Positions 3,362-59,021 of a stretch of DNA of 64,000 bases are shown here, in pieces (the stretch's first letter is position 1; each line of letters opens with the position of its first letter). A program made the translations under genes and the position numbers. This DNA is from an uncultured SAR86 cluster bacterium (GTDB lineage: Bacteria; Pseudomonadota; Gammaproteobacteria; Magnimaribacterales; AG-339-G14). The DNA is taken from NCBI GenBank assembly GCA_902614235.1, contig CACMKG010000004.1, positions 1 to 64,000 of the forward strand, read 5' to 3'. Below the pieces are notes generated by a model. That model was given only the letters and a program-made list of their open reading frames with translations. It searched no databases and was not told where the DNA came from.

Positions 3362-3369
3362 ATAATTAA

Positions 3370-4170
3370 GTGTCAAAAAAACTAATCTTATTTTTAGGAA
3401 TAGGTTTATCAATTTTTTTGATAGATCTTTTTCTAAATCCACCCAATGAAGATAAAACAATTTATATTTCAAACGAAGAAGTTATTGCTTTGATCAATAC
3501 TTGGAGTTTGCAAGTTGGAAGAGAGCCTAATAACGATGAGATTAGATCCATCATTGATAGTCTTATTGAAGAGGAAATTCTTTATAGAGAAGCATTAAGA
3601 CTTGGCTTAGATAGCGAAGACAGAATAATCAAAAGAAGACTTGCCCAAAAAATTACTTTTCTAAAGCAGGAAACAATCTCAACAGAGCCGGCAATTGAAA
3701 AACTTGAACAATTTTATGAAGAAGCAAAAGAATCATATTTGGTCCCCCAAAATTTTAGTTTTACACATCTTTATTTTGCTGAAAATAAAAATGGAAATGA
3801 AAGAGCTGCTCAAGCCATGAAAGACCTTTTAAGTGATAAATCAGTAATAAATGCTGACCCTTTTTTATTGGGCAAAAATTTTTCAAATAGGAGCTTGCTA
3901 GATATTGAAAGAGACTTTGGAGAAGCTTTTTCAAAAGCTTTTTTAACTTTAACGCTCGGCAATTGGCAAGGACCAGTTACATCTACTTACGGCAGTCACC
4001 TAGTAAAAATATTAGATAGCAATGAAGAATACATGCCATCTTTTGAAGAAGTGATTTCTCAAGTCAGAGTAGACTTTTTATTAAAACAAAGAGACCTGCA
4101 AATAAAGAACTTCGTAGATGAGTTAAAAACGGACTACCAAGTAATTATTAGTCCTAGATTTACGCAATGA
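3370..4170 (+). CDS. PpiC-type peptidylprolyl isomerase-like protein
   Basis: N-terminal TM, SurA/PpiC-like N region (EEEILYREALRLGLD..I.RRL.QK) and C-terminal GPVTSTYGSHLVKI. Confidence 0.75.
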   Translation: MSKKLILFLGIGLSIFLIDLFLNPPNEDKTIYISNEEVIALINTWSLQVGREPNNDEIRSIIDSLIEEEILYREALRLGLDSEDRIIKRRLAQKITFLKQETISTEPAIEKLEQFYEEAKESYLVPQNFSFTHLYFAENKNGNERAAQAMKDLLSDKSVINADPFLLGKNFSNRSLLDIERDFGEAFSKAFLTLTLGNWQGPVTSTYGSHLVKILDSNEEYMPSFEEVISQVRVDFLLKQRDLQIKNFVDELKTDYQVIISPRFTQ

Positions 4171-5123
4171 CGCTTATTAAAAACTTCATTTTTTCTTGTC
4201 TAATTTTTTTAAGTATTAATTTATCTAGTCATGAGTTTAGTCCTGCTCACTTGATCATGAATGAGAAAGAAGACTCTAACTATGAGACTACTTGGATGTA
4301 TCCTATTAGATCCATTGGGGAAAGAGCGTCTCTTTTATTTCCAGAAAATTGCACCGCTTTCAGCCAAATCCCTTATAAACAAGGCAAATATTCTATAGAA
4401 AAAATATCTCTCAGCTGTGATTCAACTATTAGAGGAGCAGAAATCAAAGTAGTGGGGCTAAGTGTTTTGAATGACGCTCTAGTGACAATTAACTTTTTAG
4501 ATAAAAAAAGATTTGAAGGGTTGATGAATTTAAAGAATTCGACAATAAAAATTCCTAAAAATGAACAAACTTTTCCAACTGCCTATTTTGTTCTGGGTGT
4601 TGAGCATTTAATAGGCGGTCCAGATCATCTTTTATTTGTGATGGGCTTGTTATTTATAGTCTTCGGCTGGAAGAATTTACTAAAGACCATAACTGCCTTC
4701 ACTTTAGCCCATAGCATCACTTTAGCCCTTTCAGTCTTAGGAATAGTACAGCTTCCATCTGGCAGTATCGAAGCATTAATTGCTTTAACCATTATTTATT
4801 TGGCATTTGAAATTAATTCAGAAGACAAACTGAAGAAAACTCCGTGGCTAATGGCGTTCGGTTTTGGTTTGCTTCATGGATTCGGATTTGCAGGTGCCCT
4901 ATCAGAAATAGGAATAGCAAATGACCAACTTTTGCTATCTCTCCTTTTTTTCAACATAGGCATTGAAATCGGCCAATTAATCATGATCCCAATTTTTCTT
5001 TTTGGAATCTACTTGCTTTCAAAAATAAAATTAGAAAAAGGTTCTTATATCGCTGCTTCTTATTTATTAGGAGGTATAGGTAGTTATTGGTTTATCGAAA
5101 GAGTGATTGGTATTGTGACTTAA
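4167..5123 (+). CDS. HupE/UreJ family membrane protein
   Basis: GVEHLIGGPDHLLFVMGLL...TAFTLAHSITLALSVLG...FGFGLLHGFGFAGAL motif set. Confidence 0.85.
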   Translation: MTLIKNFIFSCLIFLSINLSSHEFSPAHLIMNEKEDSNYETTWMYPIRSIGERASLLFPENCTAFSQIPYKQGKYSIEKISLSCDSTIRGAEIKVVGLSVLNDALVTINFLDKKRFEGLMNLKNSTIKIPKNEQTFPTAYFVLGVEHLIGGPDHLLFVMGLLFIVFGWKNLLKTITAFTLAHSITLALSVLGIVQLPSGSIEALIALTIIYLAFEINSEDKLKKTPWLMAFGFGLLHGFGFAGALSEIGIANDQLLLSLLFFNIGIEIGQLIMIPIFLFGIYLLSKIKLEKGSYIAASYLLGGIGSYWFIERVIGIVT

Positions 5124-5152
5124 AAAAAAGGCTGCATTAAGCAGCCTTTTTT
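5122..5152. terminator. Bidirectional rho-independent terminator
   Basis: AAAAAAAAGGCTGC-ATTAA-GCAGCCTTTTTT between convergent genes. Confidence 0.9.
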
Positions 5153-5160
5153 AATTTTTT

Positions 5161-5964
5161 TTAACTAGATGGAATTTGTCCAGTATTATAAGAAATTACA
5201 TCTTGACATGAAGCTACTTCATCAAAAGCTGCTTGGATATTTGGCGCTTTTGCTAAAAAGTTAGCATTTCCTTCTGCTCTTTTTTCGACTGTCTGATGAA
5301 AATCTCCCCATATGAAATCAAATTCTTCTGTTTCATAATCAGGTGCTAGCACCATAAATCCATATGGAGCGTCAATATTTTCGTCTGAATCTAACCAAGC
5401 ATCAAAACTATCAATTGATGAAATTAGTTCATCTGCACCTTGTCCTTCATTGTATGAACAGGCCATATAATTTGAATTAAAGTTAGTTCTATCAAACTCG
5501 CCCAACGAGTCAACATCTCTTCTCATGTAAGCATCAAAAGAAAAAGTATCCTCTTTATTTCCGCAAACTAAAATGTTGCTTGTTTCCTCACTCCACTCTG
5601 CTGTTTTTTCATACCCGGCCCAAGTAGCCCAACCTTCTTCAGCATCTTCTTTTGAATTCCAAACAAGTTGCCAATAGCCATCTTCTTCAGCATCCTCGGG
5701 TTTACTCTCGTAGCCGAGGCCATATGCAGCAACAATTGTTGAATCAACCTCTACCAAAAGACTCTGCCAGCCGGGAAGCATGTCCTGAGCGAAGGCTTCT
5801 GGAGAATAGTCAGGTCCTAATTCACAAGGGATATATTCCACATAAAACTTTTGGGGGTAATTTTCTGAACCTAGTTCAGAATATGTTGGAGTTGACTCGC
5901 TGCTGCAAGCAACAATAACTCCTAGTAAAGCAACGAGTGTTGCTATTTTTATATTTTTTTTCAT
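5161..5964 (-). CDS. Lipoprotein of unknown function
   Basis: ATG at 5964 preceded by GGAGAG; MKKNIKIATLVALLGVIVAC lipobox. The longer ORF start at 6027 is probably not used. Confidence 0.7.
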   Translation of the reverse strand: MKKNIKIATLVALLGVIVACSSESTPTYSELGSENYPQKFYVEYIPCELGPDYSPEAFAQDMLPGWQSLLVEVDSTIVAAYGLGYESKPEDAEEDGYWQLVWNSKEDAEEGWATWAGYEKTAEWSEETSNILVCGNKEDTFSFDAYMRRDVDSLGEFDRTNFNSNYMACSYNEGQGADELISSIDSFDAWLDSDENIDAPYGFMVLAPDYETEEFDFIWGDFHQTVEKRAEGNANFLAKAPNIQAAFDEVASCQDVISYNTGQIPSS

Positions 5965-6023
5965 TTTTCTCTCCTTTGAAAAATTTATAAGGACATTAAC
6001 ATTAGTAGATTTCTGATCTTTCT

Positions 6024-6887
6024 TCAAATCTTAATAGTTTCTTTTATTTTCTCTTTGAGTTTTTCTAAATGTGGATTGTCTTTATTTGAAAATATTTCAT
6101 TCAATTTTTCTTCATGATCTCTAAAATCAAGGATCCCTTTTTTATAACTATTTCTAGCTTTTAAATTTTTCCAATAAGCCTTAATTTTAGGAAGCTCCGG
6201 CATTTCCAGTACTGAATCAAGCCTCAAATCTTGCAATCTATAAAAGCAACACATTAGATTGATATCGGCATGGCTAAAATCACCGAATAAAAATCCATTT
6301 TCTGGTAAGTTGTTTTCGAGCTCTAATATTCCTTGCACAAAACCCTTGTATGCAAGAGGGCCAACTCTATCTTTAAGCGACGAGAAATACATAGTTACGA
6401 AAGCAATTTTTCTTTCCCTGCGAGGATGTCTAAGAATAATATTCCATATGGCTCTATAACTCAGTTTTTTTATTAAAGTCTCTATCAAACTCATAGAGAA
6501 AAGTGGAATGGTGGTTCCTAAAGTTTTTCCCATTGGGACGCCTTCTGTGATGGTGGTATCGTAAACCCAACTTCTTAATTCTTCCCGATTTGCCTCGTCT
6601 TTTGGCCAGAGATTTATATTATTTTCTCCTTCTAGATCGTCTAATCTTTCAATAATATAGGCACTGTCTCTGACTATTTCATCGTTGATTTTCAATACAG
6701 GAACCACCCCCGTTGGATTGATATTTTTAAGGTAATCTTTGGTAATGTTCTCTGCTTCTTCATAGTGATCACATAATTTAATTGGAACATGATCAAATTC
6801 GAGCCCCTTTTCAAATAGTGCAACTCTTACCATTTGGCTACAAAGTGACCAATTGGCATGATAAAGAGTAAGTTTTGGTTTCGTCAT
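6024..6887 (-). CDS. Glutathione S-transferase family protein
   Basis: LYHANWSLCSQMVRVALFEKGLEFDHVPI...NPTGVVPVLKI...VRDSAYIIERLDD, thioredoxin-fold GST N-domain. Confidence 0.85.
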   Translation of the reverse strand: MTKPKLTLYHANWSLCSQMVRVALFEKGLEFDHVPIKLCDHYEEAENITKDYLKNINPTGVVPVLKINDEIVRDSAYIIERLDDLEGENNINLWPKDEANREELRSWVYDTTITEGVPMGKTLGTTIPLFSMSLIETLIKKLSYRAIWNIILRHPRRERKIAFVTMYFSSLKDRVGPLAYKGFVQGILELENNLPENGFLFGDFSHADINLMCCFYRLQDLRLDSVLEMPELPKIKAYWKNLKARNSYKKGILDFRDHEEKLNEIFSNKDNPHLEKLKEKIKETIKI

Positions 6888-6953
6888 AATTCAACAGGTT
6901 GCATAATGTCTTCTTATAATATAGCTTAGATTAAGGATATCAATTTTAGGTAA

Positions 6954-7334
6954 ATGCTGGATAAAGTTTTTTTGTTTTTATTTGGGCTCGAATGGCTTGG
7001 CTTCGGGATTCTGGGTTTATTTTTTCCTGAGATAATCACTGGTCTCCTTGGGGTCTATGAATATTCAGCAGTTTATTTAAATGAAACAAGAGCTCTATAT
7101 GCTTTTTTTACTCTCATTGGCCTAATGTCTTTTATAAGTATTTATCGAATAAATTTAAGAAAAAAAGTTTATCTAACTTATGCAATTTTCTTAGGAAGTT
7201 TCGTTGTTGGCAGAATTATAAGTTTTCTTTTAGACGATAGTTTAAATACAACTACTTTTTATATTTTCTTAAATGAAATAATCGTTTTTGCAATTTGTTT
7301 TTGGCGCTATTCAAAAAGAGACTTTATTTTCTAG
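6954..7334 (+). CDS. Small 4-TM membrane protein, DUF4345-like
   Basis: Hydrophobic profile and G..P......GV......NE.RA.Y pattern. Confidence 0.5.
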   Translation: MLDKVFLFLFGLEWLGFGILGLFFPEIITGLLGVYEYSAVYLNETRALYAFFTLIGLMSFISIYRINLRKKVYLTYAIFLGSFVVGRIISFLLDDSLNTTTFYIFLNEIIVFAICFWRYSKRDFIF

Positions 7335-8272
7335 AGTAAATTTTCTTTCAAAAACTCTAGCGCGTCTTTTTTGCAAGCTCTTCTTAGATTCCTAGTCCCA
7401 CCAGTCCATGCCCCATACTTTGCAACTTCCTCAAATAATTTTAGTCTGTCCTCTGGACTATTCAGCGATAGAACTTTTCCATCATCTGTTTCATAAGTCA
7501 TGTCACCGTTATTATCAATTTTTGCAAATCTTGAAACTTTTGGGGCTATTGAATCAGGCCAAAAAGTTTTGGGATACATTGAATCAAAACCATGCAAGCC
7601 TCCTTGGTAGAGAATATCTTTACAATTAGCTCCTGATTCATTTATCCCTATAGTCAATTCTTGAGCAAGCTCAAAAGGAGTGTAATCATCTTGGTCACCC
7701 AAAAGATTTAAAATCGGTGCTTTTGTCCATCTCATCTCTTCGGGCCAATATGAAGCTAAAGGATAATAATTTAAATGTAATGCAAACCTCTCTCCTTTTG
7801 GAGCTAACTTTTCTGCCAATGGCAGCCATCCAGCGTAAAGAGACGAGCCTGCACCCAAACTCCAACCACAAATACCTATCTTATTTTTGTCTATATCAGG
7901 GTGTTTAGAAAGAAACTTTAAAGGTTCAAATGCATCAGCCAAAATCATTGCTGTAGTGACGGCCATTTGTTCCTCTGATGTTGAAGTCACGCCTCTTGAT
8001 TCAAAACTATTTACCTGAAAAACAGCTATACCAGATTCCAAAATATCCTTGATCATTTCATATTGTGCAGCGCCCCATCCACCACTGTGATGAACACAAA
8101 CCATGCAAGAAAATGGTTTTTTCCCTTCCTCAGGAAATAATAGCCATCCCTCTAGATCTTGCTCTGGCAAGTTATCTAATTCGTTTAGGATGTGAAAAAA
8201 TTCAAAAGGATTGGTTGATTTGTACTTTATAAAACCAAAATCTCCCTCTTTGAAGCTTAAATCTTCGTTCAT
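7331..8272 (-). CDS. Dienelactone hydrolase-like alpha/beta hydrolase
   Basis: GICGWSLGAGSSLYAG nucleophile elbow; LGDQDDYTPF acid; GGLHGFDS histidine. Confidence 0.8.
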   Translation of the reverse strand: MNEDLSFKEGDFGFIKYKSTNPFEFFHILNELDNLPEQDLEGWLLFPEEGKKPFSCMVCVHHSGGWGAAQYEMIKDILESGIAVFQVNSFESRGVTSTSEEQMAVTTAMILADAFEPLKFLSKHPDIDKNKIGICGWSLGAGSSLYAGWLPLAEKLAPKGERFALHLNYYPLASYWPEEMRWTKAPILNLLGDQDDYTPFELAQELTIGINESGANCKDILYQGGLHGFDSMYPKTFWPDSIAPKVSRFAKIDNNGDMTYETDDGKVLSLNSPEDRLKLFEEVAKYGAWTGGTRNLRRACKKDALEFLKENLL

Positions 8273-8403
8273 AATTGCCTTTAAATTGTTGTCAGGAATT
8301 TATTATATTTTAGATATGATATATCAATAAAATTTGGCATAATAGTTTTCCTTTTACTGAATCCAGTATCATTTAAGGTAAGGAATTTTTAGAGAGAAGA
8401 ATT

Positions 8404-9927
8404 TTGAATCATAATTTACCAATACCTAGCTTATTAGACATCGCGATAAAAAAAGGCGAAGGCATTCAGGTAAAAAATGGTGCTTTTGTTGTCACTACGG
8501 GTAAAAGAACTGGTAGAAGTCCAGCAGATCGATTTTTAGTTGACGATGCTTTGACACATGGTGTTGTCGATTGGGGCGAAAACAACCAACCAATAGAAGC
8601 TGAAAAATTCTTAAACCTTTGGGATGAATCCGAAGAGTACCTTAAGGGTAAAGATAAATATACAGCCGATCTCCATGTTGGTGCCAGCATGGAACATTAC
8701 CAGCCGGTAACTATTGAAAATGAATACGCCTGGCAAAATATGTTTTGTCAAAGCTTGTTTATTCAAACGGAATCTTTCAACCCTAAATCAAAAGATGTTT
8801 GGCAGCTTAGATCTGTTCCAAGCTTCAAATGCGATCCTAGTCGCCATGGAACAAATTCCGATGGAACAGTAATGATCAATTTTTCAACAAAACAGATCTT
8901 AATCCTTGGAATTGGTTATGCAGGAGAAATGAAAAAATCGATGTTTGGGATTATGAATTTTATTCTTCCTGAAGAAGATGTCTTATCGATGCACTGTGCA
9001 GCAAATGCTGGAAAAGATGGCGATGTGTCATTATTTTTTGGACTTTCAGGTACTGGAAAAACAACTCTTTCAGCAGATCCTGACAGATGGCTAATTGGCG
9101 ACGACGAACATGGTTGGGGAGACGGAATTGTTTTTAACATTGAAGGTGGATGCTATGCCAAAACTGTAGACCTATCTCAAAAAAATGAGCCAGTCATTTG
9201 GAACGCAATAAAAAATGGCACAATTTTGGAAAATGTAATTTTTGATCCTAACAGTTTAGAAGTAGATTACACCGATCAATCTTTAACTGAAAATACCAGG
9301 GCTTGTTATCCTCTCAGTCACGTTGATCAACATTTAGAAAAAAATTATGGAGGCGAGCCGCAAAATATTATCTTTTTAACATGTGATCTATCCGGAGTGA
9401 TGCCACCAGTTTCAATATTGTCTAAAGAGCAGGCTGCCTATCATTTTTTAAGTGGTTACACTGCAAAAGTAGGCTCTACTGAATTAGGATCGACTGAAGA
9501 AATATCTTCAACTTTTTCAAACTGTTTTGGTGCACCATTTTTCCCTAGAAGAGCTCAAGTTTATGCAGATCTATTAATGAAAAGAATTGAAGGCTTTGGT
9601 AGCAAAGTTTATATAGTAAATTCTGGTTGGACTGGTGGCTCTTATGGGGTTGGAGAAAGATTCAACATTCCAACTACTCGAAATATTATTAAAGCAATTC
9701 AGTCAGGGTCTATTGAAGAAAGTCCAAAATCTAAACTCGACATTATGAACGTAGAAATTCCTACGGAGCTAGAAGGTGTAGAAACTAAAATTTTGAATCC
9801 ATCTGAAACTTGGTCTGATCAGGGCCTCTATAAAAAAGCAGCTGAAGATTTGGCGATTAAGTTTAATGACAACATCTCTAAATTTGAAGTAACAGACGAA
9901 ATCCTTGCTTCTGGCCCTTCTACCTAA
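8404..9927 (+). CDS. pckA: Phosphoenolpyruvate carboxykinase (ATP)
   Basis: GLSGTGKTTLS, LIGDDEHGW, GKRTGRSPADRF, NSGWTGGSYGVG. Confidence 0.97.
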   Translation: MNHNLPIPSLLDIAIKKGEGIQVKNGAFVVTTGKRTGRSPADRFLVDDALTHGVVDWGENNQPIEAEKFLNLWDESEEYLKGKDKYTADLHVGASMEHYQPVTIENEYAWQNMFCQSLFIQTESFNPKSKDVWQLRSVPSFKCDPSRHGTNSDGTVMINFSTKQILILGIGYAGEMKKSMFGIMNFILPEEDVLSMHCAANAGKDGDVSLFFGLSGTGKTTLSADPDRWLIGDDEHGWGDGIVFNIEGGCYAKTVDLSQKNEPVIWNAIKNGTILENVIFDPNSLEVDYTDQSLTENTRACYPLSHVDQHLEKNYGGEPQNIIFLTCDLSGVMPPVSILSKEQAAYHFLSGYTAKVGSTELGSTEEISSTFSNCFGAPFFPRRAQVYADLLMKRIEGFGSKVYIVNSGWTGGSYGVGERFNIPTTRNIIKAIQSGSIEESPKSKLDIMNVEIPTELEGVETKILNPSETWSDQGLYKKAAEDLAIKFNDNISKFEVTDEILASGPST

Positions 9928-9980
9928 TTAAAATATAGAAGTTTATTTTTATTTGAGTCATTAATTATTGAATAAAATTC

Positions 9981-11531
9981 ATGCAAAATGCATTTAAAGA
10001 CTCGCTTAAAAAATTAAATGATCTCAATCTTGTTAATTTTTCAAACTTTTCTCAAAGAGGTATAGAAAAGGAATCCTTAAGAGTTAATGACTCAGAAATA
10101 TCGAACTCGGATCATCCAAAAGCTTTAGGTTCGGCCTTAACTAACCCTTTTATTACAACGGATTTTTCTGAAGCTTTATTGGAATTTATTACAAGAAAAT
10201 CCTCCACTGTTGAAAAAGCTCTAGATGATTTAAAAATTATTCTTACTTACACGCATCAAAATATTGAAGATGTTATTTGGCCAGGAAGTGTGCCGTGCTC
10301 AATTAGAGATGAATCAAAGATTAGAATTGCAAATTATGGAACTAGTAATTCAGGAAAACTAAAAGAGCTTTATAGGATCGGACTAAGTTATAGATATGGA
10401 AGCATGATGCAGTGTGTATCCGGTATCCATTACAATTTTTCATTGAATGAAGATTTTTTTAAAAAGTGGCAAGGCTCTAAAGAGAACTTTCAGTCTTTTC
10501 AAAACGAAAAATATTTAAACTTAATAAGAAATTTCAGAAAAAATGCTTGGCTTCTTCTTTATTTGTTTGGTGCAAGTCCAGTTGTTCCAAATACCTTCCT
10601 AACCGATAGAAAAAATTTCCTCAAACCTCTTAATAACGAAGATTCTTTCTTAGAAAATGCAACCTGTTTAAGGATGAGTGAATTAGGCTACATGTCAGAA
10701 GCTCAGGATGATCTAAATATAGCTTATAACACCTTGGATGAATATATATCTGACCTAAGAAATGCTTTGACGAAAAAGTATGAGCCGTATGAAGAAATTG
10801 GCTTAAAAAAAGACAATCAACACATACAAATTAATGACTCAATAATTCAAATCGAAAACGAATATTACAGCTCTATTAGACCGAAAAGAGTTGTTGATAG
10901 TGGCCAGAGACCTATAAATGTTTTAAAAAATGAGGGTATAGAATATGTAGAAGTGAGATGTTTGGATAATAATCCCTTTTTAAGAGGAAGTATTGATAAA
11001 CATACAGCTTATTTTATTGAAGCTTACCTTATGGTTTCGCTTATTGACGAAAATTACTCTTTTGATGAAAGAAGAATTAAAGAAATTCAAGACAACTGGC
11101 AAAATACAGTTAGAAATGGCAGAGATTCAAAACTGTTGCTAAAGCGCGATGGCAAAACTATTTTTGTAAAAGATGCCGCCAATGAGGTATTTAGCAAAAT
11201 TTACGATTTTGCCTACGCTCTTCCAATTGAGGCTTACGATCTCAAAAATAAAATCTTAAGGTCTTTGGAGGTACAAAAATCAAAACTTCGTGACTCAGAG
11301 TTAACGCCTTCAGGAAAGATATTAAAAGAAATGCAAGAAAAAAATCTTACTTGGAATGAATTTTGTAACGATAGAGCAGAAAAAAATATTAGTTATTATA
11401 AATCCTTAAAAAAAGATACAACAAATATAAAAATATCTTCAGAGATTTCGCTTGAAGATTTTGAAAAATTAGAGTCTTCGAAAGAAGTTGATTTTGACAC
11501 TTTTTTAAAGGATTATTTAAACGCTATATAA
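9981..11531 (+). CDS. gshA: Glutamate-cysteine ligase
   Basis: RGIEKESLRV, TDFSEALLEFIT, YRYGSMMQCVSGIHYNFS, EGIEYVEVRCLDNNPF. Confidence 0.95.
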   Translation: MQNAFKDSLKKLNDLNLVNFSNFSQRGIEKESLRVNDSEISNSDHPKALGSALTNPFITTDFSEALLEFITRKSSTVEKALDDLKIILTYTHQNIEDVIWPGSVPCSIRDESKIRIANYGTSNSGKLKELYRIGLSYRYGSMMQCVSGIHYNFSLNEDFFKKWQGSKENFQSFQNEKYLNLIRNFRKNAWLLLYLFGASPVVPNTFLTDRKNFLKPLNNEDSFLENATCLRMSELGYMSEAQDDLNIAYNTLDEYISDLRNALTKKYEPYEEIGLKKDNQHIQINDSIIQIENEYYSSIRPKRVVDSGQRPINVLKNEGIEYVEVRCLDNNPFLRGSIDKHTAYFIEAYLMVSLIDENYSFDERRIKEIQDNWQNTVRNGRDSKLLLKRDGKTIFVKDAANEVFSKIYDFAYALPIEAYDLKNKILRSLEVQKSKLRDSELTPSGKILKEMQEKNLTWNEFCNDRAEKNISYYKSLKKDTTNIKISSEISLEDFEKLESSKEVDFDTFLKDYLNAI

Positions 11532-11544
11532 AAAGGAGAAGTTG

Positions 11545-12519
11545 ATGAAGGCATATGTTTGTAGAGAATTTGGACCGGTTGAATCTCACAAGGTTGAGGA
11601 AATAGAGGATCCTAGAGCAGAGGCCGGCCAAGTTGTGGTTGATGTAAAAGCAGCAGGAGTAAGCTTTCCTGACGTTTTAATTGTCCAAGGAAAATATCAA
11701 TTTCAACCTCCTTTTCCCTTTTCTCCAGGAGGAGAAATTGCAGGTGTCATTAGTGAAGTTGGCGAAGGGGTTGTCGATTGGAAGGTTGGAGATCGAGTGA
11801 TTGCGATGACTGGAAATGGTGGAATTGCTGAGAAGGTAGTGGCTTTTGAAATGACTTTGATGCCGCTTCCAGAAACAATGGATTTTAAAGACGGCGCAGC
11901 ATTTCCTCTTAACTACGGAACTACTTATCATGCTTTAAAACAAAGAGGTCAATTGCAGCCTGGCGAAACTCTCCTTGTCACGGGCGCAGGAGGAGGAGTT
12001 GGCACGACAGCAATTGAAATTGGAAAGGCGATGGGAGCGAAAGTAATTGCCGCTGCTAGTACCGAAGAAAAATTAGAAATCGCTAAAAACCTTGGCGCTG
12101 ACGAAACAATAAACTATAGCGATGGTGAGTTAAAAGAAAAAGTAAAGGCTTTAACCGATGGCTTAGGAGCAGATGTTATTTACGATCCAATTGGCGGAGA
12201 TATTTTTTTACAATGCATGCGATGTGTAAATTGGAAAGGCAGAGTATTAGTAATTGGCTTTGCAAGTGGGCCTATCCCTGAAGTACCAACAAATTTAGCA
12301 TTATTGAAAGGATGTTCTATCGTGGGTGTTTTTTGGGGAAGATTCACAGGCGCAGAGCCAGAAGAAAATTCAAAGAACTTTGATGAATTATTTGCTCTTC
12401 ACGCTGAAGGCAAGCTCAAACCACAAATCACTAAAAGCTATTCTTTAGATGATGCGGCGGAAGCGATATCGTCCTTAGAAAACAGAAAAGCTACTGGAAA
12501 AGTTGTAATAGAGATGTAA
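11545..12519 (+). CDS. NADPH:quinone oxidoreductase family protein (zinc-type MDR)
   Basis: GAGGGVGTTAIEIGKAMGAKVIAAAS Rossmann motif; SFPDVLIVQGKYQFQPPFPFSPGGEIAG. Confidence 0.92.
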   Translation: MKAYVCREFGPVESHKVEEIEDPRAEAGQVVVDVKAAGVSFPDVLIVQGKYQFQPPFPFSPGGEIAGVISEVGEGVVDWKVGDRVIAMTGNGGIAEKVVAFEMTLMPLPETMDFKDGAAFPLNYGTTYHALKQRGQLQPGETLLVTGAGGGVGTTAIEIGKAMGAKVIAAASTEEKLEIAKNLGADETINYSDGELKEKVKALTDGLGADVIYDPIGGDIFLQCMRCVNWKGRVLVIGFASGPIPEVPTNLALLKGCSIVGVFWGRFTGAEPEENSKNFDELFALHAEGKLKPQITKSYSLDDAAEAISSLENRKATGKVVIEM

Positions 12520-51001: not shown

Positions 51002-52348
51002 ATGAATGTCGACATAATCATATTAGCTGCCGGACAAGGGAAAAGGATGCAGTCTAATTTACCCAAAGTTCTCCAGCCTTTAGGCAGCAAACCGCTTTTG
51101 CAACACGTAATCGATACTTGCTCTCAAATAAATAAGTCAAAACTTCATATAGTAGTCGGAGGTCATAACAAACTCATTCAATCTTCTGTAAAAGCTCCAA
51201 GATCTACTAATTGGGTGCTACAAAGAAAACAACTTGGAACGGGCCATGCAGTCAAACAAACTCTACCGAGTTTAAGACCTAACTCCTGTGTAGTTGTGCT
51301 TTATGGTGATGGGCCTTTGGTAAGAATTAAAACTTTAAAAAAACTTATTTCAAGAACTTCTAGAGATAATTTGTCTCTTTTAACTTTTGAAGCATCTAAT
51401 CCAAAAGGCTTGGGTAGGATCATTAGACAAATCAATTCTAAGGTAGTTGGTATAGTTGAAGAAAAAGATGCATCTGCTAGTGAGAGAAAAATTACCGAGG
51501 TTAACTCAGGAATTATGGCTACTTCATCTAAAAATTTAAAAGGTTGGTTGTCCAAACTTAAAAATAATAATGCCGCGAAAGAATATTATTTAACGGATGT
51601 TGTTTCTTGTTGTCACAATGAAAATAAAAGGATAACAGCAATAAATCTTGGAAATTCTGAAGAATTATTAGGCGCCAACGATGCTCAAGAATTGCAAAAT
51701 TTAGAGCGCATTTATCAAAAAGAAATGGCAAAAAGTTTCATAGAAAAGGGCGTTAAATTTGCTGATGTAAATCGAGTAGATTTTAGAGGCGAAATAGTTA
51801 TAGGTAAAAATGTCTTCATTGATATCAATGTGGTTCTACAAGGAAACGTTTCAATAGGCAACGATTGCTTTATTTCAGCAGGCGCTGTAATTAAAGATAC
51901 AAAATTAAATAAAAAAGTTAAGGTAGAACCTTATTCGGTAATAGAAAATTCTCAAATTGGCGATAATTCATCTATTGGCCCATTTGCTCATGTTGGCCCA
52001 GGGGCAGAATTAGAACAAGGCGTCGAAGTAGGAAATTTTGTTGAAATTAAAAGAAGCAAGATCGGTAAAAAAACAAAAGCCAAGCACTTAGCCTACATAG
52101 GAGATGGCGCATTGGAGGCGGAAATAAATGTTGGCGCTGGAACAATTTTCGTAAATTACGACGGTAAAAATAAGAACAAAACCAAAGTTGGATCAAATGC
52201 CTTTATAGGCTCCAACAGCTCTCTTGTTGCTCCTTTGATAATTGGTAAAAACAGCATGATCGGGGCTGGTTCAGTAATAACAAAAAACGTTTCAGCAAAC
52301 AAATTGGCTTTGGGCAGAAGCAAACAAAGAAATATTAAGAAAAGATAA
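51002..52348 (+). CDS. glmU: Bifunctional GlmU
   Basis: IILAAGQGKRMQSNLPKVLQPL, left-handed beta-helix repeats, YDGKNKNKTKVGSNAFIGSNSSLVAP. Confidence 0.97.
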   Translation: MNVDIIILAAGQGKRMQSNLPKVLQPLGSKPLLQHVIDTCSQINKSKLHIVVGGHNKLIQSSVKAPRSTNWVLQRKQLGTGHAVKQTLPSLRPNSCVVVLYGDGPLVRIKTLKKLISRTSRDNLSLLTFEASNPKGLGRIIRQINSKVVGIVEEKDASASERKITEVNSGIMATSSKNLKGWLSKLKNNNAAKEYYLTDVVSCCHNENKRITAINLGNSEELLGANDAQELQNLERIYQKEMAKSFIEKGVKFADVNRVDFRGEIVIGKNVFIDINVVLQGNVSIGNDCFISAGAVIKDTKLNKKVKVEPYSVIENSQIGDNSSIGPFAHVGPGAELEQGVEVGNFVEIKRSKIGKKTKAKHLAYIGDGALEAEINVGAGTIFVNYDGKNKNKTKVGSNAFIGSNSSLVAPLIIGKNSMIGAGSVITKNVSANKLALGRSKQRNIKKR

Positions 52349-54174
52349 TGTGCGGAATAATTGCAGCAGCTACTGATAGAAGTGTCGGAAAACTTTTAGT
52401 TCAGGGGCTTCATAAAATGGAGTACCGAGGTTATGACTCAGCAGGCATTGCCTTGCACCAAGAGGGTGGTGTTGCGCATTTAAGAACACTCGGGAAAGTC
52501 AATTTGCTCGAAGAAAGAATGATACAAGAAAAGCCGAGAGGCAAAGTAGGTATTGCGCACACTCGATGGGCAACTCATGGCGAACCTTCTGAATCAAATG
52601 CCCATCCTCATTCGTCAAAAAATAGAGTATTTATTGTGCACAATGGTATCATTGAAAATTATTTAGCTTTAAAAGCTGCTTTATCAAAAAAAGGCTATTC
52701 ATTTGAGTCTCAAACGGATTCAGAATTGATAGCCCACCTTATTGATAGTTTTCTAAATGATGGCAAAAGTATGATTGAAGGCATGCAGGCTCTTAAAACT
52801 AGTCTTGAGGGAGCCTACGCAATTGCAGCAATAGATAAGGAAGACTCAAATAATTTTTATTTAGCCAGAAACAAATCTCCTTTGCTTTTAGGTTTGGGGA
52901 AAGATGAGTATTTTGCTGCTTCAGACCCTTTGGCAATTAGCGAATTAACCAATAAGTTTATTTTTTTAGAAGATGGAGACACAGCAGCAGTTTCAGCATC
53001 AGGCTTAGAAATCTTTGATGAAAATCAAAAAGCTGTTGAAAGAAATGTCACAAAAATTGATATTTCTGCTGAGGCGACCTCAAAAGGGGACTATAAACAC
53101 TTCATGGAAAAAGAAATTTACGAACAACCTCAAGCCATCAGAAATACCTTAGATGGAAGAATCGGTGGCGAAGATGTTTTAGAGAATATTTTCGGAGAAG
53201 GCTCTTCAAAGTTGCTAGCGGAAGTAAAAAGAATACAAATTGTCGCTGCTGGCACTAGCTTGCATGCAGGTAGAGTTGCGGCCAATTGGTTTTCAGCGAT
53301 TTCTCAAGTACCAACGCAAATAGATTTTGCGAGTGAATATACATACAAAAATCCTTATATTGATGAAAATACTTTGCTAGTAACTATTTCTCAATCTGGC
53401 GAGACGGCGGATACATTGACTTCTTTGAGGCATGCAAAAAATCAAAGCTACTTAGGCTCCTTAACCATTTGCAACGTGCCAACTAGCTCCATTGCTAGAG
53501 AATCTGATTTTCTCTTACTCACTAATGCTGGCCCAGAAATAGGTGTTGCTTCAACTAAAGCTTTTACCACGCAGTTAGTCGCACTGATGTTGTTGGCAAT
53601 GTCGATTGCTAAGGCAAAAAATATTAATCCCAAACTAAGAACAAGAATTGTCACGGCCATAAGAACACTACCAGAGATTGTAGAAGAATCTTTAAAACTA
53701 AAAAAAGAAATTCAAGAGATTTCGCCCAAAATTGCAGAAAAAGATAATGCTCTTTTTCTTGGACGCGGTATGTTTTATCCAATCGCTAAAGAAGGGGCAT
53801 TAAAGTTAAAAGAAATTTCTTATATTCACGCTGAAGCTTATCCAGCAGGCGAGTTAAAACACGGACCACTAGCATTGATTGATGAAAATATGCCTGTCGT
53901 GGCGCTTGCTCCTGAAAGTGAATTGGCCGAAAAACTTATTTCAAATTTGGAGGAAGTAAAAGCAAGGAGCGGGACTTTGTACGTTTTTGGAGATGCATCT
54001 AGCCATATGCAAATCGATTCTGGCAAGTTGATGACCATGCCAAAATGTGACTTTTTATTGACGCCTATTCTTTATACTATTCCGTTGCAAATATTGTCTT
54101 ACGAGGTAGCTTTGATCAGAGGCACAGATATCGATCAACCAAGAAACTTAGCCAAGTCCGTCACGGTAGAGTAG
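52348..54174 (+). CDS. glmS: Glutamine-fructose-6-phosphate aminotransferase
   Basis: MCGIIAAATDRSV...; C-terminus DIDQPRNLAKSVTVE*. Confidence 0.98.
   Translation: MCGIIAAATDRSVGKLLVQGLHKMEYRGYDSAGIALHQEGGVAHLRTLGKVNLLEERMIQEKPRGKVGIAHTRWATHGEPSESNAHPHSSKNRVFIVHNGIIENYLALKAALSKKGYSFESQTDSELIAHLIDSFLNDGKSMIEGMQALKTSLEGAYAIAAIDKEDSNNFYLARNKSPLLLGLGKDEYFAASDPLAISELTNKFIFLEDGDTAAVSASGLEIFDENQKAVERNVTKIDISAEATSKGDYKHFMEKEIYEQPQAIRNTLDGRIGGEDVLENIFGEGSSKLLAEVKRIQIVAAGTSLHAGRVAANWFSAISQVPTQIDFASEYTYKNPYIDENTLLVTISQSGETADTLTSLRHAKNQSYLGSLTICNVPTSSIARESDFLLLTNAGPEIGVASTKAFTTQLVALMLLAMSIAKAKNINPKLRTRIVTAIRTLPEIVEESLKLKKEIQEISPKIAEKDNALFLGRGMFYPIAKEGALKLKEISYIHAEAYPAGELKHGPLALIDENMPVVALAPESELAEKLISNLEEVKARSGTLYVFGDASSHMQIDSGKLMTMPKCDFLLTPILYTIPLQILSYEVALIRGTDIDQPRNLAKSVTVE
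54160..54174 (+). repeat. Direct repeat copy A (glmS 3' end), candidate attachment core
   Basis: GTCACGGTAGAGTAG, last four codons plus stop of glmS; recurs at 57822 and 58179. Confidence 0.9.
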
Positions 54175-54512
54175 GCGAAAGTAGTGATTTATCACTGCTA
54201 CAAAAACATCACTATCTAGTTTTTAAACTTTATTGTCGAAGCAACAATCTGACTTGGGAAAAAGAAATTTCGAAACGACAATTTATTCTCTTAAAAATAA
54301 TTAGAACTCTTAAAAGTGATGGTCTAGGTTATCGAAGAATTGCAAACTGGTTAAATGACTCTGGAATTAGAACTCATACCAATAAAAAATTTACGAATAG
54401 TCACGTGCATGGAATTTTAAAAAGATTTTCTGAACGAGGTGAACGCTATCAGCAAATTCGTCATAAGAAATATAGAAGTAGACTTGGGAAATTTAAATTG
54501 ATAATAAGATAA
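54175..54512 (+). pseudogene. Recombinase-domain ORF lacking a canonical start codon in the integrated form (may be completed on circularisation)
   Basis: Open frame GESSDLSLLQKHHYLVFKLYCRSNNLTWEKEISKRQFILLKIIRTLKSDGLGYRRIANWLNDSGIRTHTNKKFTNSHVHGILKRFSERGERYQQIRHKKYRSRLGKFKLIIR*; GYRRIANWLNDSGIRTHTNKKFTNSHVHGILKR resembles the Recombinase DNA-binding domain. No in-frame ATG/GTG/TTG upstream of the domain. Confidence 0.7.
54180..54191 (+). repeat. Terminal inverted repeat, left
   Basis: AGTAGTGATTTA; exact reverse complement at 58155-58166. Confidence 0.75.
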
Positions 54513-54546
54513 AATAATATGAAAAAATTTTAATAAGTAAATTAGC

Positions 54547-54795
54547 ATGGACTTTCCCAAAGTATTTGAATTAATAATGGAAGCGATATTAGAAGGGAAG
54601 TCAGTGGAAATTGAATATCAAAAAAATAAATTTAAGGATTACGAAATTACAAAAAGAAAAATAACTCCTAAAAAATTTATTCTCGTCGAAAGAAGAACAA
54701 ATTATTTTCATAGACTTTGTGTTCAAGCATATTGTCATCTTAGAGAAGAAGAAAGGGTTTTTGCTGTTTATCGTATTAAAAATTTAAAAAGTTAA
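54547..54795 (+). CDS. Small WYL-domain-like protein
   Basis: ILEGKSVEIEYQ...ITPKKFILVERRTNYFHRLCVQAYCHLREEERVFAVYRIKNLK matches the WYL layout (IxY, P, xxAYCHLREExRxFxxxRIxxL). Confidence 0.7.
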   Translation: MDFPKVFELIMEAILEGKSVEIEYQKNKFKDYEITKRKITPKKFILVERRTNYFHRLCVQAYCHLREEERVFAVYRIKNLKS

Positions 54796-55353
54796 ATGCA
54801 GGAAGGGTATAAAGAAAAAGTAATTAATCATTCAAATAGTTTTGTCAGTATTAAAATTGAAGAACTCTTGATAAAAAAAACAGAAGAATTTGCAAAAGAA
54901 ATTGTAAAAACTAAATTAAAGGAAAGACATCACTTTATAGACAATTCACAAGAGATAAAAAGATGGAAAAATGGATTTCTAGGAGAATATGCTGTAGAGA
55001 AATTTATAGGAAAAAAATTTGTCGATCTCTCTATAGGCGATAGTAAAAAATACCATGTCTCAGATCTTTCTAAGTTAGGTATAGATTGGGGAATAAAAAC
55101 AGTTGAATATGGCAAATTTCCAATTATCTTTAAAAATTCTTTCAAGGACGAGATAATAGTGATTAAAAAAACAGATCAACTCTTTTATATTTGTGGGTTA
55201 GCAACAAAAGAGACTCTTAATAAATTTCAGTCTGAAGATCTTATATTAAGTCCCGGTTTAAGAGCAAAAGGAACTAAAACAGGGTTTTACGGATTCTCTG
55301 ATCTCAAAACACCAACATATATAAAAAAAGTTATTTCTTCCTGCAATGATTAA
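54796..55353 (+). CDS. Putative PD-(D/E)XK-like nuclease, likely restriction component
   Basis: GFLGEYAVEKFIGK...LGIDWGIKTVEYGKFPII...DEIIVIKK...FYICGLATKE: E-x(n)-D-x(n)-IKT nuclease-like arrangement; overlaps the MTase start. Confidence 0.45.
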   Translation: MQEGYKEKVINHSNSFVSIKIEELLIKKTEEFAKEIVKTKLKERHHFIDNSQEIKRWKNGFLGEYAVEKFIGKKFVDLSIGDSKKYHVSDLSKLGIDWGIKTVEYGKFPIIFKNSFKDEIIVIKKTDQLFYICGLATKETLNKFQSEDLILSPGLRAKGTKTGFYGFSDLKTPTYIKKVISSCND

Positions 55354-56341
55354 AACAAATAAATATTCTCGATCTTTAAAGAATCTAAAATATATAGACT
55401 TGTTTGCCGGAATAGGAGGTTTCAGAATAGCGTTAGATTCCTTTGGAGCAAAATGCGTATTTTCTTCAGAGTGGGATAAAAATTCTCAACAAGTATATTT
55501 AAAAAATTTTAATGAAATGCCCCATGGCGATATTACCAAGATCAATGAAAAAGAAATTCCCAAACATGATTTATTATGCGGAGGTTTTCCTTGCCAACCT
55601 TTCAGTATCTCAGGAAAAAGAAAAGGTTTTGATGACTCTAGAGGAACCCTTTTTTTTGATATTTCAAGAATAGTTAAATTTCACAAACCCAAAGTCTTAA
55701 TTTTAGAAAATGTTAAAAACATTCTTTCTATTGACAAAGGCAAGACATTAGAAATGATAAGGTCAATTCTTGAAAATGAACTCAACTACCAAGTATCGAT
55801 AGAACTTTTAAAAGGAAACGATTTTGGCGTTCCACAAAAAAGAGAGAGAGTCTTTTTTATATGCATTCATAATTCTTTAGGAATAAAGAATTTTAAGTTA
55901 TCAAAACCTGCTTTTAATCCCAAAACCGTGAATGAAATTCTAGAAGAAGGGAACTTTCAGGAATTAGAAATTAATAGAAATGATATAAAAATAGATTCAA
56001 GCAAAATAAAAAAGGATCTCTTTAATAATTATCCTTCAAAACCTTTGAGAGTTGGGACAATAAATAAAGGTGGGCAAGGCGAGAGAATTTATAGTCCAAA
56101 AGGGTTGGGCATAACTTTGTCGGCACACGGAGGAGGTGCAGGAAAAAAAACTGGGGCATACTTAATTAACAATAAAGTAAGAAGATTAACCAAAAGAGAG
56201 TGTGCAAGAATGATGGGATTTCCAGAAAGTTTTAATATTTCAGAAAATCTAAACCAAGCACACACTCAATTTGGTAATGCAGTAATTGTAAATGTAGTTC
56301 AATTTATTATTAAAGAATTAATAGATCAAAATGTTATTTAA
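55346..56341 (+). CDS. DNA (cytosine-5) methyltransferase
   Basis: DLFAGIGGFRIALDSFGAKCVFSSEWD, GGFPCQPFSISGKRKGFDD, LENVKNI, VPQKRERVFFI, QFGNAVIVNVV. Confidence 0.97.
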   Translation: MIKTNKYSRSLKNLKYIDLFAGIGGFRIALDSFGAKCVFSSEWDKNSQQVYLKNFNEMPHGDITKINEKEIPKHDLLCGGFPCQPFSISGKRKGFDDSRGTLFFDISRIVKFHKPKVLILENVKNILSIDKGKTLEMIRSILENELNYQVSIELLKGNDFGVPQKRERVFFICIHNSLGIKNFKLSKPAFNPKTVNEILEEGNFQELEINRNDIKIDSSKIKKDLFNNYPSKPLRVGTINKGGQGERIYSPKGLGITLSAHGGGAGKKTGAYLINNKVRRLTKRECARMMGFPESFNISENLNQAHTQFGNAVIVNVVQFIIKELIDQNVI

Positions 56342-57144
56342 GTATTTAAACTTTCAATAAAAAGTTTCGAATCGTCTGTCTTTATCTCTTTCTTTGGTTC
56401 TAATTTAAAAATTACATTCGAATTATTAGTATTTGATAATTTTCTTACCTCAAAGTGCAATTCATTTTTTTTACTTAAGAAATATAATGAATTTTTCAGA
56501 TAAGGACTTTTGGGTGCAGACTCTCCAAAACTAACAAATGTCTTGCCCTTAGACTGCTCAATCTTAAAACTTGAAAATTTCATACCTAAAATATTTTTGA
56601 AGTTTTCTAAATCTTTTGCAGGAAGATTTGAAGACCCGCTTTTCTTCTCCCTATAAACTCCACTGATTTCAAAATGTTTTTCAACATTATCTGCACTAGT
56701 AAACCTTATTGGATATTTCATAAAATCTGAATGATGATTTGAAGAAATCAAAAACTTAACTTTTTTCGAACTCAAATAACTCTTAATAGAATCTATCATT
56801 TCGTTTTTACTGCATCTTAGGGCAACAGATTTCTTTGAAGAATAATATTCAAACTGATCATTCATGTGTTTGATTATTGCTTGCGCTCTTAATTCATTAC
56901 CCTTATTCGCAGATGAAAATATAAAGGAAGAACTATTAAGGTCTTTTAAAACAACAAATTGACCAATCTGACTTTCCTTCAATTTGCACTCTAAAAAAAA
57001 TAGGGAATTATTGTTTTTTAAAATCTCAATGTCTGGGATATTGGAGTTAGACCCACCATGTTTTTTAAATTTTAAAAAAGAAAAATTAGAGTACTCATTT
57101 TTTAAATATTTAAAAGCATTTTCTTCAAAATCTTTCCATGACAT
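56338..57144 (-). CDS. Putative restriction endonuclease, PD-(D/E)XK type
   Basis: PDIEILKNNNSLFFLECKLKESQIGQFVVL gives PD-x(n)-ExK; convergent with the C5-MTase (4-bp overlap). Start chosen at MSWKDFEENAF. Confidence 0.7.
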   Translation of the reverse strand: MSWKDFEENAFKYLKNEYSNFSFLKFKKHGGSNSNIPDIEILKNNNSLFFLECKLKESQIGQFVVLKDLNSSSFIFSSANKGNELRAQAIIKHMNDQFEYYSSKKSVALRCSKNEMIDSIKSYLSSKKVKFLISSNHHSDFMKYPIRFTSADNVEKHFEISGVYREKKSGSSNLPAKDLENFKNILGMKFSSFKIEQSKGKTFVSFGESAPKSPYLKNSLYFLSKKNELHFEVRKLSNTNNSNVIFKLEPKKEIKTDDSKLFIESLNT

Positions 57145-57223
57145 CTTGCTAAGTTGCCATAATTTTAAAAAAAAACAAAATAATGATAAGTTTATTTTAT
57201 TAGTTTTAGAACAGGAGGAAATT

Positions 57224-57388
57224 ATGAAATTTAGCATTTCAACAATCTTAGGAATAATCTTAGGTGCGACAATATTTATTTTTTATGTCTCTAATGTCAG
57301 ACCAGTAGGTTGGTTTGATTCTCTAGTAGGTATAATTTTAGGTGTAATAGTATTTGTAGTGGTTAAAAGGTTTAAAGGTTTTAAGTAA
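57224..57388 (+). CDS. Small two-TM protein, 54 aa
   Basis: Perfect SD AGGAGG 57213-57218, then MKFSISTILGIILGATIFIFYVSNVRPVGWFDSLVGIILGVIVFVVVKRFKGFK. The longer track ORF from 56984 is antisense read-through. Confidence 0.8.
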   Translation: MKFSISTILGIILGATIFIFYVSNVRPVGWFDSLVGIILGVIVFVVVKRFKGFK

Positions 57389-57431
57389 AAATAAATGAAC
57401 ATTTAGTTTAACAATGGATGAAATTTAAATA

Positions 57432-57788
57432 ATGAAGGCATTAAAAAATAATTTTTTTCAAAACACAAAACAATGGTTTGATACTGTAATTAGTAAAATA
57501 TTTAAAAACAGACAAGAAGCAGTATTTACAGATGAAGAAATTAATAAGTGGGATCAAGTAGAGTTTGAAGAAGCATTATGGAAAGAGCAGGAAGAATATT
57601 TGAAAGATTATATAGAGGAAGATGAATTTGACCCTCCGCCAATGAATGACGAAGATTACATTAAATACGAAGAACACGAAGAAGATGCTTACATTTACGA
57701 CGAAGAACATGAAGAATATGATAATGCTCACGAAGGAACTCAAGTAGGTCCGATAGAAGAGTATTTAAGGGATAGAGAGATAGATTAA
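57432..57788 (+). CDS. Very acidic small protein of unknown function
   Basis: Basic N-terminus then Asp/Glu-rich C-terminal two thirds (EEALWKEQEEYLKDYIEEDEFDPPPMNDEDYIKYEEHEEDAYIYDEEHEEYDN). Confidence 0.7.
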   Translation: MKALKNNFFQNTKQWFDTVISKIFKNRQEAVFTDEEINKWDQVEFEEALWKEQEEYLKDYIEEDEFDPPPMNDEDYIKYEEHEEDAYIYDEEHEEYDNAHEGTQVGPIEEYLRDREID

Positions 57789-57790
57789 AT

Positions 57791-57836
57791 GATATGTTTA
57801 ATCACTGTTTTCAATCAGTCTGTCACGGTGGAATAG
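57791..57836 (+). repeat. Candidate attachment site copy B (left arm + core)
   Basis: GATATGTTTAATCACT (57791-57806), then GTCACGGTGGAATAG (57822-57836); same 31-nt spacing as copy C. Confidence 0.85.
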
Positions 57837-57871
57837 ATCTAAGGAAAGAAATTAAGTAATATATTTAATAA

Positions 57872-58120
57872 ATGAGAATTTTTATTTTAATTTTGTCTTT
57901 GAGTTCCTGTTTGATTTTTTCTCATTCAGGCGGGACAAATCAAGATGGATGTCATACCAATCATTCTAATGGAAGTTATCATTGTCACGACGCAAAACCT
58001 TACTCTTACACACAGTCATATTGTCATATGAAATTTGGAGAAAAACGATGTGGTTACGCAAAAAGCACCTGCGATTCGCTAGTCAGAGAATATGGTGGAT
58101 ATTGTCAAATAGAATTCTAA
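57872..58120 (+). CDS. Small secreted YHCH-motif protein
   Basis: Signal peptide, then HSGGTNQDGCHTNHSNGSYHCHDAKPYSY and further cysteines. Confidence 0.75.
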   Translation: MRIFILILSLSSCLIFSHSGGTNQDGCHTNHSNGSYHCHDAKPYSYTQSYCHMKFGEKRCGYAKSTCDSLVREYGGYCQIEF

Positions 58121-58147
58121 AGATTAAACAAAAAGATAATAGTAGAC

Positions 58148-58193
58148 GATATGTTAAATCACTACTCTGACTGTAATCGTCACGGTAGAGTAG
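58148..58193 (+). repeat. Candidate attachment site copy C (left arm + core)
   Basis: GATATGTTAAATCACT (58148-58163), then GTCACGGTAGAGTAG (58179-58193), core identical to the glmS 3' end. Confidence 0.9.
58155..58166 (-). repeat. Terminal inverted repeat, right
   Basis: TAAATCACTACT, exact reverse complement of 54180-54191. Confidence 0.75.
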
Positions 58194-58214: not shown

Positions 58215-59021
58215 TTGGAAAAATTGAAAAGAATAATACTCAGCAGAAAAGGATTTGATGCTAGAGCAGGTGGAAGTGCGTCACCTATATTTGGCGATGG
58301 AAGGATCTTTTCTATACCGATTCCTCAAAACCACCCCTCACCTAAAAAGTATAGAGATTTAGACTTTTATGGAGTATCAGGCACAGAATTATTAAAAGAA
58401 GTATCTGCTAAGGTTAAACCTTCAGATTATTGTCATAATGACCCGCTGCTAAATGAAGATATTGGTATTTTCGGTCAAGCAGGTTCTTCGCAAACAGAAT
58501 TAAAAAATAATAGTGTAGGTCCAGGAGACTTATTTTTATTCTTTGGATGGTTTAAGAACTTTTCAATTAAGGGAAGAGATATGCACCATCTTTATGGATG
58601 GTTACAAATAAAAGAAATAATCAAAGGGTCTAAAGCAATAACCACATATCTCAAAGAAGAGAATATTGCTCATCCTCATGGATACGGAGACACTTCTAAA
58701 TTCTTAAATAATACTATCTATATAGGTAGAAAAACTTTAGAGATAGATAACAAAAAAGTTTTTGATAGGGGGCACGGTTTATTTAAAAAGACTCATGATG
58801 ATTTAATTTTGACCGAAGCAAATAAAACACGATCTAGATGGAAACTGCCTTCTAAATATTTTTTAAATACAAAAGGGCTATTCTTAAACAGAATGAAGTG
58901 GGAAAATGAAAAAGAATCTACAATCTTTTACAAAGGGTTTGGTCAAGAATTCATTCTTGACATTGAAAAAAATCCAAGTGTAAAGACGTGGGCAGTAAAC
59001 CTAATAAAAAAACATGGATAA
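58215..59021 (+). CDS. Nmad3-like (nucleotide modification associated domain) protein
   Basis: RIILSRKGFDARAGGSASPIFGDGRIFSIPIP N-terminal signature and downstream HxxLYGWLQI; TTG start with GGAG at 58203-58206. Confidence 0.7.
   Translation: MEKLKRIILSRKGFDARAGGSASPIFGDGRIFSIPIPQNHPSPKKYRDLDFYGVSGTELLKEVSAKVKPSDYCHNDPLLNEDIGIFGQAGSSQTELKNNSVGPGDLFLFFGWFKNFSIKGRDMHHLYGWLQIKEIIKGSKAITTYLKEENIAHPHGYGDTSKFLNNTIYIGRKTLEIDNKKVFDRGHGLFKKTHDDLILTEANKTRSRWKLPSKYFLNTKGLFLNRMKWENEKESTIFYKGFGQEFILDIEKNPSVKTWAVNLIKKHG

Follow-up and report, generated by a model that had tools for sequence, protein, structure and literature searches.

Two composite sites repeat the end of glmS

The 64,000-nucleotide stretch of DNA analysed here (the window) contains two short composite sites, B and C, downstream of glmS, and they raise the question of whether such sites are arms of a recombination site, a conserved piece of coding sequence, or both. 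The original prediction described them as near-identical composites, and the exact pattern was indeed found at 57791-57836 and 58148-58193 on the plus strand and nowhere else in the window, where shuffles of the window gave 0 expected by chance. The left arms of B and C are identical except for one base (T/A), the 15-nt spacers are unlike each other, and the differences in the right block are confined to its two R positions, with ATC following both.

The right block, GTCACGGTNGARTAG, is the final 15 nt of glmS (codons V-T-V-E-stop). A third copy, which the original prediction had not listed, lies at 54160-54174 and is the end of glmS itself (S-V-T-V-E-stop); no further copy was found in the 1.09-Mb genome with up to 2 mismatches allowed. 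By its size and gene order, this genome is probably that of a SAR86-like bacterium. Both variable bases of site B fall at third-codon positions of glmS, as would be expected if this copy came from another glmS allele. The left arm, GATATGTTNAATCACT, is an inverted repeat of the sequence 3' of the glmS stop codon and the complement of AGTGATTNAACATATC, which is found after glmS at loci L036 and L040. Because of this complementarity, the block that had been called a left arm appears to be the right-end arm of a cassette. The features of the region are listed in Table 1.

Table 1. Features of the glmS region, in positions of the window
Feature	Position	Strand	Remarks
glmS	52348..54174	+	3' end is the predicted integration target (attB); ORF ending SVTVE-stop; relatives 50-98% identical
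22-nt core at glmS 3' end, element 1 left junction	54153..54174	+	Predicted crossover dinucleotide AC 54163-54164
Element 1 left arm GCGAAAGTAGTGATTTATCA	54175..54194	+	Inverted match 14/20 to the arm preceding site B
Headless ORF with Recombinase domain, without catalytic domain	54162..54512	+	PF07508 6e-9; in frame with ATG 57794 across the circular junction
WYL-domain protein, element 1 cargo	54547..54795	+	PF13280 5e-10
185-aa protein, element 1 cargo	54796..55353	+	Without family match
C5-cytosine DNA methyltransferase, element 1 cargo	55346..56341	+	PF00145 1.6e-91; PADLOC MTase_II
Type II restriction enzyme, element 1 cargo	56338..57144	-	PADLOC REase_II 5.7e-29
54-aa membrane microprotein, element 1 cargo	57224..57388	+	Also alone in a relative's 244-bp cassette
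118-aa acidic protein, element 1 cargo	57432..57788	+	-
Element 1 right arm, predicted integrase half-site	57791..57814	+	Includes ATG 57794-57796
Site B core (glmS 3'-end copy)	57815..57836	+	AC 57825-57826; right end of element 1
82-aa His/Cys-rich protein, element 2 cargo	57872..58120	+	Signal-peptide-like N terminus
Element 2 right arm	58148..58171	+	Arm shared with another cassette, in relative G007 (L040)
Site C core (glmS 3'-end copy)	58172..58193	+	AC 58182-58183; last site of the array
Nmad3-domain gene	58215..59021	+	PF18754 3.1e-53; directly right of the array

Core copies downstream of glmS in related genomes

The region 3' of glmS was traced in 59 genomes of the same order, and 57 loci had 2.5 kb or more of sequence beyond the gene. 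Of these 57 loci, 43 had one or more exact distal copies of the glmS 3' end and 31 had one or more cassettes with paired arms. In 640 kb downstream of glmS, 98 core copies were found on the glmS strand, 0 on the opposite strand and 0 in a reversed control, and an order-wide scan also gave clusters, such as nine core copies within 12 kb. The copies clustered downstream of glmS and not at random positions unrelated to it, the latter being the outcome that would have refuted the original prediction. Altogether 87 distinct paired cassettes, 186-6047 bp long, were recognised, and the cargo between core copies was unrelated across dozens of genomes. A scan of 274 Gammaproteobacteria with the arm pattern gave no match, this pattern representing one arm type and missing the sites of the window's own genome too.

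Empty and filled sites were both present. At the empty sites L066 and L070, glmS continues straight into TTTTTGATTTTCTTTAG; at the filled sites L057, L059 and L063 the same sequence stands after the last core, beyond 1.1-5.1 kb of cassettes. The right half of that last core is native, and its left half (GTA, not GTC) is cassette-derived.

Some cassette genes, at L071 (offset 3176-3616 downstream of glmS) and L073 (offset 222-626), end in ...SVTVE-stop and take their C terminus from the glmS-like core at the right end of the cassette. At L040 the minus strand carries six mutually related short ORFs at offsets 3445-7329. Their spacings are close to multiples of 339 bp, a pattern indicative of a long repetitive stretch in this genome (G007).

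Arm symmetry and position of the crossover

The 20 nt after one core were the inverted complement of the 20 nt ending 22 nt before the next stop codon. Arm identity averaged 11.6/20 at this exact spacing compared to 5.4-6.6 at other spacings within 6 nt, and paired arms (at least 13/20) were found for 71 of 132 neighbouring sites; 2000 shuffles gave 10.4 on average and never more than 23. The arms formed about 15 families on one shared core. Symmetry was raised at positions 11-28 from the centre, reached its top (84-93%) at 16-24 and was at background beyond. In the structure of the LI integrase bound to attP, the half-sites are 25 bp long and the zinc-domain motif lies at 16-24 (PMC3783163). 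The symmetry profile of the arms therefore appears to match a large serine integrase (LSI) half-site and its 16-24 motif.

Linkage between arms and core positions was then used to map the exchange. In distal sites with only the left arm in common, core positions -22, -21, -19, -17, -16 and -13 agreed above chance and -10, -7, -4 and -1 did not, while sites with only the right arm in common gave the reverse pattern (-10 to -1) apart from a weak signal at -17. The left half-core was linked to the left arm with p about 0.001 at -22, -21, -19, -16 and -13. Since the linkage switches between -13 and -10, the exchange would take place at or beside AC (-12, -11), which is the exact centre of the dyad and was kept in distal copies (A in 129/132, C in 130/132). 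The sites thus combine attP-like dyad half-sites of ~25 bp around a central dinucleotide with a 2-bp crossover common to both partners, and a 2-bp centre between dyad half-sites is characteristic of serine integrases.

The proposal of protein-binding arms on either side of a recombination core in B and C therefore survived in part. The arm is a predicted integrase half-site and the site a probable glmS-tied recombination junction, but the exchange maps to AC within the right block (GTC-AC-GGT) and not to the variable 15-nt spacer.

An integrase-bearing element in the glmS site

Serine catalytic domains were found in 7 of the 204 genomes of the order, and only one of these genomes, G458, had an LSI at glmS, which counts against the model proposed below. 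In G458 a 6.05-kb element lies precisely between glmS and the next core, with matching arms (GTTTAGTCGGTCTTTC / GTTTAATCGGTCTTTC). Its 551-aa integrase ends just before the right core and has the catalytic, recombinase and zinc ribbon domains of an LSI (PF00239, PF07508 and PF13408), the zinc ribbon scoring 21.7 bits, slightly below the curated 25.3. A G2P-type rolling-circle Rep and, at the left end, a small helix-turn-helix-like protein are also encoded by the element. The closest solved relatives of the integrase were YokA/SprA and the TP901-1 integrase, and its identity to any phage record was <30%. No match to it was found in viral contigs. The core-arm and circular attP patterns were not found in viral contigs either, which again counts against the model.

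The arms of the G458 element also bound integrase-less cassettes at L041 and L096, which would link the site geometry to the enzyme. We infer that cassettes lacking an LSI are moved in trans by integrases of the G458 type and, judging from this single LSI, that other arm families may have integrases of their own.

The two remaining full-length LSIs, those of G044 and G047, were located away from glmS with no core sites nearby. Both loci (LSIs at L116 7636-9213 and L117 322-1881, respectively) hold a similar protein of ~165 aa (DGRRSF...LDNLIK), which hints at a second LSI element family in this order. A different island, adjacent to guaA (L119 6619-8543 in G002; L120 1314-3154 in G026), has a tyrosine integrase gene and a small serine resolvase gene that overlap.

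Proposed mechanism and alternatives

Sites B and C are very probably attR-type right junctions of cassettes placed by LSIs in the 3' end of glmS. At the level of sequence, the glmS-derived core, the dyad arms, the crossover position, the empty and occupied sites and an LSI-encoding element in the same site all indicate this. In the circular cassette, attP would read arm (about 18 bp)-10-AC-10-inverted arm, and its central 22 nt would mimic the end of glmS. By swapping strands of attP and glmS at AC, the integrase would exchange the final glmS codons for equivalents, leaving the protein unchanged, and the old glmS 3' end would be displaced downstream, behind the right arm of the cassette. Repeated events would stack cassettes. 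Most cassettes, the two of the window among them, encode no integrase and would need one provided in trans. Two further findings count against the model: after a first insertion the glmS target keeps only the left (glmS) half of attB, and element 2 of the window has no matching left arm.

Integrative elements of tyrosine recombinases, or Xer-dependent elements, could also have the glmS 3' end as attB, and this is the best of the alternatives although very unlikely. Such elements typically use the 3' end of a gene and restore that gene, and XerC and XerD were present in nearly all genomes. However, nearly all genomes had just two full-length tyrosine recombinases, taken as XerC and XerD, and no additional one was seen at the glmS arrays. 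The crossover, moreover, fell within 2 bp between -13 and -10, without a mixed zone, compared to an overlap of 6-8 bp for these enzymes, and it is a serine integrase that occupies the glmS site in G458.

Tandem single-gene cassettes as small as 186 bp, with palindromic ends that vary in sequence while complementarity is kept, would also be seen if the cassettes were integron-like and recombined as folded single strands (attC-like). We consider this even less probable, as the arrays showed no IntI-like integrase and the symmetry was highest at LSI half-site positions. The crossover lies at the dyad centre, whereas in attC it is at one end of the hairpin.

Casposon-like transposition of elements that end in inverted repeats and duplicate a 22-bp target site would place inverted repeats between direct copies of the 22-bp target, as observed, but is scarcely credible. 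The left half of the downstream copies travels with the arm of the element and often misfits the glmS codons; it is therefore no duplicate of the target, and the cassettes had no common transposase. Finally, a chance or repeated coding segment without mobility, which the likeness of the copies to the end of a coding sequence might suggest, has practically no probability and was refuted by the comparative data, with 0 copies expected in the window and strand-specific clustering around unrelated cargo in dozens of genomes.

The two elements of the window

Under placement by serine integrases, element 1 of the window extends from AC 54163-54164 to AC 57825-57826 (54164-57825, 3,662 bp) and carries a type II restriction-modification system, a WYL protein and small genes. 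Element 2 (57826-58182, 357 bp) has one 82-aa gene; its left arm was not recognisable, with no match to its own right arm. Since in G007, a genome of the same genus, this right junction belongs to another cassette that is intact, element 2 looks like a remnant, a deletion product. No serine integrase (PF00239) was found in the whole genome from which the window comes (G000), so neither element would be autonomous here. The window is thus best described as a restriction-modification cassette plus a remnant, both without integrase and apparently non-autonomous, and not as complete LSI elements. The Nmad3-domain gene to the right of the array was also the next gene after the last core in G006 and G007.

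The 54-aa membrane microprotein of element 1 (FYVSNVRPVGWFDSLVG...VVVKRFKGFK) turns up in cassettes from different genera. It is the sole gene of the 244-bp cassette at L039 (3529-3773) and is found at L069 on the minus strand (offsets 893-1162).

A possible gene across attP

Short ORFs with PF07508 and no catalytic domain were found in about 16 genomes, mostly beside the core at a cassette end. The ORF of this type in the window (54162-54512) has no in-frame start when integrated. In the circular form, ATG 57794-57796 would open a frame of 127 aa (MFNHCFQSVCHGRVGESSDL...) that runs through the core and in frame into this ORF, and the same arrangement was found at L036. The alternative that had been offered for the conserved blocks, a short coding segment, and the observation of an ATG inside the arm therefore gained support as well.

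None of 12 left-end recombinase-domain ORFs running through the core had an in-frame start when integrated. In the circular state one was present in 9 of 11 paired-arm cases (8 with ATG), compared to 47% (34% with ATG) for unrelated right ends, in a small sample of 12 ORFs with five close relatives among them and family members that are not independent. The small recombinase-domain proteins could be aligned along their length. An AlphaFold model of one (mean pLDDT 80) showed two strands around a helical core and had no significant PDB match, which is neutral on kinship beyond the Pfam hit. Together, these observations give moderate support to an attP inside a small recombinase-domain gene that would be whole only in the excised circle; our guess is that the protein is a regulator acting at att sites.

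In one arm family (L096 cassette 6374-11604, L137 5663, L037 6253-6522), the small recombinase-domain ORF occupies the right end instead, lying on the minus strand and running outward through the core, in mirror image to the left-end cases.

The broadest reading would be an order-wide serine-integrase cassette system with many outer-arm specificities on one glmS core, in which the product of an attP-split recombinase-domain gene, made only in the excised circle, is a sensor of the integration state; for this we see the chances as evenly balanced. No description of a glmS cassette system was found in the literature searched, which covered non-subscription papers. Streamlined ocean bacteria are thought to be poor in mobile DNA, and most genomes here had no resident phage-type integrase; nonetheless, the order would have a site dedicated to the stacking and exchange of single-gene cassettes, restriction systems among them. 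This would give serine integrases an integron-like cassette economy. Sites with one core and different arms would also form a natural panel of integrase sites, of use for questions of attP and attB choice. If the gene across attP is real, it would be a simple switch reporting the presence of the element in the chromosome.

Comparison with known systems

Tn7 also takes the 3' region of glmS as its safe site. It inserts downstream of glmS with a 5-bp duplication and encodes TnsABCD, whereas in the cassette system the glmS end itself would be exchanged and copied. Integron arrays and CALINs are alike in layout only, with tandem small cassettes, variable palindromic sites and an integrase that is mostly absent. 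The glmS arrays differ in having no IntI or attC, in a predicted crossover at the dyad centre and in their target, the end of an essential gene.

In mycobacteriophage BPs, attP lies within the reading frame of a small DNA-binding protein and integration alters the gene product (PMC4557955). In the glmS cassettes attP may likewise lie in the frame of a small protein. In BPs, however, integration removes the C terminus and the shortened product is active, while the glmS cassettes would lose the start codon, leaving a headless gene, and their protein is a relative of the recombinase domain. Among phage LSIs (A118/LI, SPbeta SprA/YokA, TP901-1 and phiC31), the domains of the G458 integrase have counterparts and the att geometry resembles that of the LI integrase, but the G458 integrase is borne by a 6-kb element with a rolling-circle Rep that is not a recognisable phage.

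The att sites of staphylococcal and enterococcal cassette chromosomes (SCC/ECC), used by the large serine recombinases CcrAB/CcrC at the 3' end of rlmH, are about 50 bp long and have inverted repeats giving a dyad in attR and in the circle (PMC6222049). A large serine recombinase, dyad att sites and a conserved housekeeping gene as target are common to both systems. The two are also alike in their highly variable cargo, in which restriction systems occur, in islands of several elements and in elements without a recombinase. The differences are that the target is glmS and not rlmH, that the central motif is GTNACNGT here and TATCATAA in SCC/ECC, and that a single LSI and no Ccr-type gene pair was seen at glmS. 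In addition, the glmS cassettes are tiny (186-6047 bp), often with one gene, have ~15 arm families and belong to a different bacterial phylum. By analogy, the glmS array appears to work like staphylococcal SCC, but it is not SCC.
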